Positions 9,335 through 55,384 of a stretch of DNA of 64,000 bases are shown here, piece after piece. How positions within the stretch are numbered: the stretch's first letter is position 1; each line of letters opens with the position of its first letter. The DNA lies in NCBI RefSeq assembly GCF_016065055.1, contig NZ_CP065856.1, forward strand, positions 2,851,836 to 2,915,835, given 5' to 3'. This DNA comes from Halosimplex litoreum (lineage in GTDB: Archaea; Halobacteriota; Halobacteria; Halobacteriales; Haloarculaceae). Position numbers and translations under genes: made by a program. Under the pieces are notes generated by a model. The model had not been told where the DNA came from. It did no database searches and worked only from the letters and a program-made list of their open reading frames with translations.

Positions 9335-9534
9335 ACGTGAACCGACGCCCGACCGCTGCATAAATGTGAGTGTCGACTCCGGTGACGGTCTTCAGTGCGT
9401 GTCTCGGTTGTAACGGTGGCCTTGTTCGATATGTTGTGGACGGGGGTCGGGTGAGCGCGACCGCAGGTGACGGTGAACGATGAAAGCCCTCGCCGCGCTC
9501 GCTCTGAAACGGACCGACCACACGCACCAGTAGA

Positions 9535-9900
9535 CGGTGAACGCCCTCGGCCCGCTCGCGGTCGCTACGCGACATATCCACGCTCTCCGCACCGTCCGCG
9601 CGGATAGGGGTCGCGTAGACGACTCCCGGCGCGAGCGCGCCTCGCCCGTTCAGTCCGCCAGGAGAGCAAGCTCTCCTGAGCCCTGACTCGCTTCGCTCGT
9701 CAGGACACCAGGGACCGCACGGCACTGCGACCGCCCCGCACAGCACCGCAGACGGCCTCACACCTCCCCAGCCGATTCGGTCGCAGGCTCCCTCATCCAC
9801 TGTCAGAGCACGCTCTGACAAGCCTTCGTTCACACGTTCACGAAGACCTCGCGCGACTGTTTCGAGCGGCCCGCCAAGAGGCGGGCACGCTCGACAGCGC
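9535..9900 (+). repeat. Hairpin-rich dispersed repeat, copy A
   Basis: The 650-base gap 9335-9983 has no supported gene. From 9535 it matches a second copy at 55108-55362. Conserved blocks are GTGAACGCCCTCG, CCCGCTCGCGGTCGCT, GAGCGCGCCTCGCCCGTTCA, GTCCGCCAGGAG and GCACCGCAGACGGCC. Between them lie hairpins: 9567-9616 (outer arms ACGCGAC/GTCGCGT), 9660-9677 (AGGAGAGC, AA, GCTCTCCT), 9682-9704 (CCTGAC, core TCGCTTCGCTC, GTCAGG), 9801-9820 (arms of nine) and 9869-9886 (GCCCGCC, AAGA, GGCGGGC). A partial extra copy of the first block seems present near 9470-9500. The right border is approximate. Confidence 0.75.
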
Positions 9901-9983
9901 ACGCCAACCGCACCGCTCACCGCAACCGCACCCACTCCGCGCCCCGCGACCGCTCGGTACACCACCTCCACTGAACACCGCGC

Positions 9984-50772: not shown

Positions 50773-51642
50773 TCAGTAGTCCCGCCAGCTGTGGTCGGGG
50801 TTCCACCCGAGCAGCTCGCGGGCTTTGTCCGTCGAGATCAGCGACTCGCGGCCCTCGAGCGACTCGTGACGGTCGGCGTCGGGGTAGCACTCGGCGGCGA
50901 TCTGCTCTGACGGTGCGTCGACGTTCGTGTCGGCGGCGACGGCCCAGAACGCTTCGTGGCTGTCGAGGTCGGCCTCGACGGCGCGGCGGGCGATCGTCGC
51001 CGCGTCGGCGACGTGGAGGTACGAGAAGAGCGTCGAGCGACCGTGCTCGCGGACCGCCTCCAGCGAGCGGTCGGTCTCGGCGACCCGCTCGCGGAGCCGG
51101 TCGTCGGTCGCGACCCAGGGGTACCGGAGCGAGGCGACCTGCGGCGCGTCCGACCGGCGGCCGAAGCCGTCGCCGAGGACCTCGGTGGTGCGCTTGCCGA
51201 GCGCGTAGGGGTCGCGAGGGGTGAGCGGGTGGTCCTCGTCGACGGGCAGATAGCGCACGTCCGTCGGGGCGTCCTGGTAGTCGGCGCCCATCGCGTTGAT
51301 ACTGGAGGGGAGGACGACGGCCTCCAGCCCGAGTTCGGTGGCGGATTCGAGGACGTGGTAGGCCGACATCGCGTTGCTCTCGAAGGTGACGTGTTCGGGG
51401 TGGCGCGCCGGTGAGGGGATCGTGCCCATGTGGACGACGGCGTCGGCGTCGCTCGCGGCCAGCGAGCCGTAGGTCTCGCCGGCGTCGAGCAGGTCGGTCG
51501 TGCGGTAGCTGTCGGCCACCGCCTCGCGGCGCTCGCCGCGGGACAGATCGACGGTCTCGTAGCCGGCGTCGGCGAACTCGCGGAGGATCGCCTCGCCGAT
51601 CGTGCCGTTGCCGCCGGTCACGGCCACGCGGTCGATGGTCAT
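50773..51642 (-). CDS. NAD-dependent epimerase/dehydratase (SDR), uronate dehydrogenase-like
   Basis: 289 residues from MTIDRVAVTGGNGTIGEAIL at 51642. The NAD motif TGGNGTIG is at residues 9-16. The active-site triad is Ser of VVLPSSINAMG, Tyr and Lys of DPYALGKRTTE. It resembles uronate dehydrogenases and extended SDRs acting on sugar nucleotides or sugars. The next gene upstream is a GH5 glycosidase, so a role in carbohydrate use is possible. Confidence 0.88.
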   Translation of the reverse strand: MTIDRVAVTGGNGTIGEAILREFADAGYETVDLSRGERREAVADSYRTTDLLDAGETYGSLAASDADAVVHMGTIPSPARHPEHVTFESNAMSAYHVLESATELGLEAVVLPSSINAMGADYQDAPTDVRYLPVDEDHPLTPRDPYALGKRTTEVLGDGFGRRSDAPQVASLRYPWVATDDRLRERVAETDRSLEAVREHGRSTLFSYLHVADAATIARRAVEADLDSHEAFWAVAADTNVDAPSEQIAAECYPDADRHESLEGRESLISTDKARELLGWNPDHSWRDY

Positions 51643-55107: not shown

Positions 55108-55362
55108 CGGTGAACTCCGCTGAACGCCCTCGACCCGCTCGCGGTCGCTGAGCGGGATACCCTCGCTTCGCTCGGGTAGTGCCCGCTCAGACGCCTCCAC
55201 GAACGCGAGCGCGCCTCGCCCGTTCAGTCCGCCAGGAGCCCCGACCGCTCCGCACAACACCGCAAACGGCCACACTCCTCCCCAACCGATTGCGCTCCGC
55301 GCGCCTGCGGCGTGCGGTGCTCATCCCTCGCGTGGTTTCGTCGCGCGCACGAGAGCGCGCGA
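55108..55362 (+). repeat. Hairpin-rich dispersed repeat, copy B
   Basis: It lies between the convergent pirin and iron-type alcohol dehydrogenase genes and is the second copy of the element at 9535-9900. Conserved blocks recur in the same order: CCCGCTCGCGGTCGCT, GAGCGCGCCTCGCCCGTTCA, GTCCGCCAGGAG and GCACAACACCGCAAACGGCC. Hairpins fill the same gaps with different sequence: 55149-55189 (outer arms TGAGCGGG/CCCGCTCA, inner TACCC, core TCGCTTCGCTC, GGGTA) and 55341-55362 (TCGCGCGC, ACGAGA, GCGCGCGA). A 10-base insertion (TCCGCTGAAC) lies early in the first block. Confidence 0.75.
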
Positions 55363-55384
55363 CGGCACGCGCCACCACCCCTTG

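Follow-up and report, generated by a model that had tools for sequence, protein, structure and literature searches.

A many-copy mosaic intergenic element of haloarchaea whose long hairpin keeps its pairing as its sequence drifts

Results

Two copies of the element in the window

The window, i.e. the whole 64,000-nucleotide stretch of Halosimplex litoreum DNA analysed here, carries two copies of a dispersed element (Table 1). The initial annotation had described a common order of conserved blocks in these copies, and we find the same order: 9537-9549 corresponds to 55120-55132 with one mismatch (CTGAACGCCCTCG in copy 2), 9551-9566 to 55134-55149, 9633-9652 to 55207-55226, 9653-9664 to 55227-55238 and 9744-9757 to 55258-55271. 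An additional block common to both copies, CCTCCCCA(G/A)CCGATT, lies at 9763-9777 and 55277-55291. A single large hairpin (9536-9659 and 55119-55233) has the block pair TGAACG...CGTTCA as its foot and encloses the first of two hairpins noted at matching sites. Both of these (9567-9616 versus 55149-55189, and 9869-9886 versus 55341-55362) fold as had been claimed. That their stems differ completely is true of the tip and of the 3' hairpin, but overstated for the first hairpin, in which roughly half the pairs of the outer stem have changed between the two copies, with compensation, and GATA..TAG is common to both.

Table 1. Features of the two element copies in the window
Feature	Position	Strand	Remarks
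Copy 1, whole element	about 9396-9976		longer than the initially delimited 9535-9900
Copy 1, 5' leader	9396-9481	+	weak match to genus consensus TGCGAGTTGAGTAGTGGTTTCTGG..., semi-global alignment score 60
Copy 1, one extra unit GAAAGCCCTCG...	9482-9535	+	1-6 units in tandem in other copies
Copy 1, core hairpin P1-P4	9536-9659	-	covariance model 127 bits, one of 32 training sequences; MFE -69.3 kcal/mol, z -3.0
Copy 1, inner stems P3/P4, the first variable hairpin of the initial annotation	9567-9616	-
Copy 1, inserted perfect palindrome AGGAGAGCAAGCTCTCCT	9660-9677		module in 13/65 copies
Copy 1, inserted hairpin	9682-9704	-	minus strand CCTGAC-GA-GC-GAA-GC-GA-GTCAGG
Copy 1, conserved C-rich block CACCGCAGACGGCC ... 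CCTCCCCAGCCGATT	9744-9777
Copy 1, inserted perfect hairpin TGTCAGAGCACGCTCTGACA	9801-9820
Copy 1, 3' hairpin type 1 (CGAGCGGCCCGCC...GGCGGGCACGCTCG)	9863-9893	-	in 21/65 copies
Copy 1, 3' tail to consensus end ...CACTGAAC	9894-9976	+	weak alignment, score 39
Copy 2, core hairpin	55119-55233	-	covariance model 115.5 bits, outside training set; MFE -63.5, z -2.9
Copy 2, inner stems P3/P4, containing tandem GA and tipped by a GAA triloop	55149-55189	-
Copy 2, conserved blocks GTCCGCCAGGAG, CACCGCAAACGGCC, CCTCCCCAACCGATT	55227-55291
Copy 2, 3' hairpin type 2 (GTCGCGCGCACGAGAGCGCGCGAC)	55340-55363	-	in 15/65 copies

The core hairpin of copy 2 begins 13 bp past the stop of a pirin-like gene, whose product is 89-90% identical to the pirin-like proteins of Halosimplex carlsbadense and H. 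pelagicum R2. Upstream of this gene, H. carlsbadense carries one more copy in the opposite orientation (L094:3210-4001), which neither the window nor H. pelagicum has; the flanks of this copy are too diverged to yield an insertion boundary. Stop-free stretches of 93-209 codons are found within elements (the window copies and 28 bounded copies), which we attribute to high G+C content.

A large intergenic family

Where two copies had been reported, the element is one of at least 64 in the genome: a 24-base block, GAGCGCGCCTCGCCCGTTCAGTCC, has 64 matches at up to three mismatches in the 4.16 Mb genome, while the reversed pattern has none. The census was made by pattern and BLAST searches, and 65 copies of this genome were analysed. 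Seven congeneric genomes have at least 22-37 matches each, among the matches listed. With a covariance model at E<=1e-6, matches were obtained in 36 of the 117 genomes of the order, and the haloarchaeal genera with matches number 16 of the 49 sampled; the E-values are approximate, and copy numbers in some genera are lower bounds, counted among the matches listed. The 81 genomes of the order that have no match serve as a rough negative control for the model. The element also occurs on plasmids of Halorussus, Haladaptatus, Halovenus and Haloarcula, and is unannotated in the plasmid regions examined. Viral carriage was rejected: phage records contain no match to the element, and the two viral-contig matches are chance 17-mers in DNA with no wider similarity to it; one lies within a called gene.

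As had been surmised, no named RNA family corresponds to the element: Rfam 15 returned nothing at gathering level, and the single match of copy 1 at E<=1 is a trypanosomatid snoRNA (E 0.042, 23.3 bits against a cut-off of 40). We found no account of the family in the freely accessible literature.

With genes called by a simple codon model, all 65 analysed copies are intergenic, 19 of them between convergent, 35 between co-directional and 11 between divergent genes. There is no preferred orientation relative to neighbouring genes and no clear enrichment at gene 3' ends. Along the chromosome, neither the strand order (runs test, P 0.083) nor the gaps between copies can be told from random, and the strands show no replichore pattern.

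Well-bounded copies are 372-708 bases long and share one plan. On the plus strand, a leader of about 90 bases starting TGCGAGTTGAG..., often with TTCGGTTCGATG just before it and with a sharp homology boundary at TGC in near-identical copy pairs, is followed by one to six units of about 57-63 bp in tandem, in each of which GAAAGCCCTCG..GCTCGC recurs. Then come the core hairpin of about 125 nt, with TGAAAG/CTTTCA or TGAACG/CGTTCA as its closing words; RCCAGG with a C-rich linker, which sometimes has extra palindromes; CCTCCCCAGCCGATT, CATCCCTCGC and GCGCGCCA, in that order, with a hairpin slot in each of the two intervals; and a tail that ends near CTGTACTGAGC. In L013, L017, L021 and L068, the tandem units upstream of the core repeat one core half-stem up to six times, so that the one opposite arm could have several rival partners to pair with. 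The C-rich linker of L046, L086 and L087 has grown as a minisatellite (ACCGCCCCGCACAGCG / ACCGCCACCGTACCGCGCCAGCG units).

A second dispersed element lies directly behind the first in 16 of 83 copies examined (Halosimplex, mostly this genome), among others downstream of L021, L022, L036, L038 and L088. It has three hairpins in a TTTTTCACCCATGTTTTTG...GAAAAAGATGG frame, its block TTTTTCACCCATGTTTTT has 44 genome matches, and it often ends a few bases from a gene stop codon, either alone or directly behind the first.

Pairing of the core hairpin is kept on one strand

The better-folded strand of the element is the minus strand of the window, on which the core reads GGACTGAA(A/C)GGGCGAGGC.GCTCGCG...GTCG.CTGAG....CACTAT....ATAT....CTCAGCGACCGCGAGC..CCGAGGGC(T/G)TTCA. 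Its folding z-score as RNA is about -3, with similar results for DNA parameters; the plus strand is also stable, since the sequence is a near-palindrome.

We analysed 41 named pairs in two alignments, one of 32 copies aligned blind to structure and one of 98 distinct model-aligned rows from many loci. In the structure-blind alignment, 94.4% of the cells are paired, compared to at most 47.5% in slid controls, and both sides have changed in 14 of the 41 pairs (40 cells; slid controls, at most 6 pairs and 8 cells). Since the same sequences had served to name the pairs, the paired share leans to structure, and the changes on both sides are the stronger evidence; none of 500 shuffles reached any of these measures. 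In the model-aligned rows, both sides have changed in 32 of the 41 pairs (237 cells; slid controls, at most 18 pairs and 38 cells), including all 13 pairs of helix P3.

The inner loop of the core contains opposing GA/GA dinucleotides, invariant in all 32 structure-blind sequences, and two almost invariant G.G positions. Wobble mismatches on the minus strand of this alignment are G.T in 35 cells and A.C in 15, where cells are not independent events and two of the A.C cells belong to a column pair dropped later. The corresponding model-guided counts, 121 versus 34 in the 98 rows and 23 versus 4 in other genera, lean towards the minus strand on which the model was built, as the structure-blind 35 versus 15 do not. 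Changes on both sides of pairs, the invariant tandem G.A and the excess of G.T over A.C together indicate that one folded strand is apparently under constraint. The further copies, which might have lacked pairing, thus keep it with covariation, and the selection initially proposed for a folded RNA is well supported as selection on a folded single strand, be it RNA or single-stranded DNA.

Hairpin modules follow one grammar and are exchanged at fixed slots

Many of the inserted hairpins follow one grammar, consisting of a stem, a tandem GA, two base pairs and a GNA loop. Among 56 distinct hairpins of this genome's copies that combine a 2x2 mismatch with a triloop, GA/GA occurs in 31 on the minus strand and in 11 on the plus strand, where shuffles predict 0.05 for each strand; the loop is GNA in 26 of the 31. 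Tandem sheared G.A pairs, like C(GNA)G triloops, have unusual stability in DNA and RNA alike, and the grammar therefore does not settle which molecule is folded.

Outside the core, hairpins vary from copy to copy as mosaic modules, and modules recur among copies. The pirin/Fe-ADH site has a different tip in each of three species (TACCCGAGCGAAGCGAGGGTA; the common GCGCGG...GCGC; and TATCCGAGGTCGCGAAGCGACCGAGGATA), and tips are likewise replaced at other orthologous sites. For occupied orthologous sites, the most similar copy in this genome is usually a paralogue instead of the orthologue, which points to exchange between copies. The alternative raised in the initial annotation, palindromes at preferred spots, is therefore also borne out, in the form of quick replacement of hairpin modules at fixed slots, with tips that differ by species and modules that are shared. 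Selection on the fold and module replacement both act.

Presence and absence at orthologous sites

Among eight sites traced in six congeners, several carry the element in some species and lack it in others. At the cleanest, L015, two species have 511 and 410 bp and two others 37 and 45 bp, and the genes on both sides match. Deletion may account for empty sites: at site L013, the relic L103 of one congener (G005) has lost its interior between two CCCTCG words, indicating that deletion of the element happens via short direct repeats. At several shared sites, copies also persist across speciation. L010 and L011 are 98% identical over 469 bp, and L021-L024 92-98%, with unrelated flanks and sharp common ends, which speaks for copying of the element; gene conversion could also have produced such near-identical copies.

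The mobile-element check by target-site duplications gave a divided result, as empty sites do exist but no duplications were seen: the longest words shared by the flanks equal those of a swapped control, with element ends known to a few bases. Between the ends of 15 copies listed, only chance words of 4-7 nt were found as candidate terminal inverted repeats. The genome has a single Y1_Tnp gene, at 51280 in genome coordinates; the copy closest to it is at 72.5 kb, about 21 kb away. No recurrent gene flanked by copies was seen, nor a conserved gene in the element, and a search for an autonomous version with the same leader was unproductive, as nearly all leader matches lie beside known copies.

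Discussion

The element is a dispersed, many-copy mosaic that forms a long hairpin on its minus strand, keeps its pairing as the sequence drifts, exchanges modules and is present at some sites and absent from orthologous ones. The reading we favour, with about even confidence, is that of a non-autonomous, mosaic, REP/BIME-like mobile intergenic element of haloarchaea that acts via single-strand hairpins. A trans-acting protein would then recognise the folded single strand; the simplest candidates are an HUH-type transposase, which works on single strands, and a host protein that binds hairpins, either of which would copy or move the element much as REP/BIME/REPIN sequences are handled in bacteria. 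Copies would subsequently swap modules by recombination and decay by deletion, and a host role, for example in chromosome organisation or at transcription ends, would be secondary, if there is any. A broader reading, which we put forward tentatively, is that of an order-wide haloarchaeal family of strand-specific folded single-strand elements, ssDNA or RNA, with a tandem sheared G.A and GNA triloop grammar, whole hairpins exchanged at fixed slots, a selected fold and a postulated mobilising or binding partner.

Bacterial REP/BIME/REPIN sequences associated with RAYTs are palindromes of 20-40 bp with a GTAG (or CGTC) tag at their foot, and the RAYT gene lies between two inverted copies (PMC2817692, PMC3116915, PMC3733652). 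Our element resembles them in its high copy number (64 copies here), strictly intergenic location, hairpins, composite mosaics, stems that stay complementary under sequence drift and lack of target-site duplication. However, its core hairpin alone measures about 125 nt and the whole element about 370-710 bp, GTAG, the form of the tag that was counted, is near the minus-strand foot in one of 65 copies, no RAYT is linked to it, its host is an archaeon and its inserts carry tandem G.A and GNA loops. A RAYT-type REP was rejected on the grounds that the genome has only one Y1_Tnp, not near a copy. The element thus works like REP/BIME without being a member, differing in tag, RAYT and unit size. MITEs are likewise short, non-coding, dispersed and variably present at orthologous sites, be it by gain or by loss, but neither terminal inverted repeats nor target-site duplications were found for the element. 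IS200/IS605-type elements and their palindrome-ended derivatives share strand-specific subterminal hairpins and the lack of both features (general knowledge and PMC2817692), whereas our element has many hairpins along its whole length and shows no end homology to an autonomous copy, and the genome has a single Y1_Tnp, not beside a copy. Structured RNAs of Rfam resemble it in helices that covary beyond controls and in the non-canonical tandem G.A, yet its only similarity to them is the sub-threshold one to a trypanosomatid snoRNA (E 0.042).

The main rival to the mobile-element reading is an RNA function, in which the dispersed copies would encode a multicopy structured non-coding RNA, transcribed from the minus strand and acting in trans or binding a protein. 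Covariation, wobble intermediates on one strand and an invariant tandem G.A loop are what selection on RNA yields, and the family is order-wide; still, we consider this rather unlikely, as 27 of the 28 well-bounded copies lack an A/T-rich promoter-like word inside and few have one in their flanks, read-through from randomly oriented genes would produce the minus strand in only about half of the copies, hairpin modules are freely swapped and Rfam offers no match above threshold. A riboswitch or mRNA leader was rejected, the orientation to genes not being fixed, and so was a specific transcription terminator, given the 11 copies between divergent genes. These same 11 of 65 copies, together with the lack of a clear enrichment at gene 3' ends, the random chromosomal spacing without a replichore strand pattern and the absence of the element from many genera, make it improbable that the host maintains the element as a protein-binding or chromosome-organising site, or as a bidirectional 3' end or insulator, although all copies are intergenic, 19 of 65 lie between convergent genes and the hairpins are strong. 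Finally, the structure might be unselected, with palindromes that arise and become perfect through template-switch mutagenesis and are then spread by gene conversion. In favour of this, whole tips are exchanged, modules are shared and a few such hairpins also occur in the flanks, but non-Watson-Crick pairs should then vanish, whereas tandem G.A does not vary in the core and predominates in the inserts; as mismatches are also strand-biased, with G.T over A.C, and single-stranded blocks conserved, we regard this origin as very improbable.

With dozens of copies in many haloarchaeal genomes, and hundreds in all, the family provides a natural data set of copies that differ in sequence but agree in structure, making the strand, the molecule and the protein partner directly testable. 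If a single-strand transposase or a hairpin-binding protein is found, the family would be an archaeal counterpart of the bacterial REP/BIME elements, and its tandem-GA/GNA grammar gives a specific key with which halophiles can be searched for other intergenic elements.
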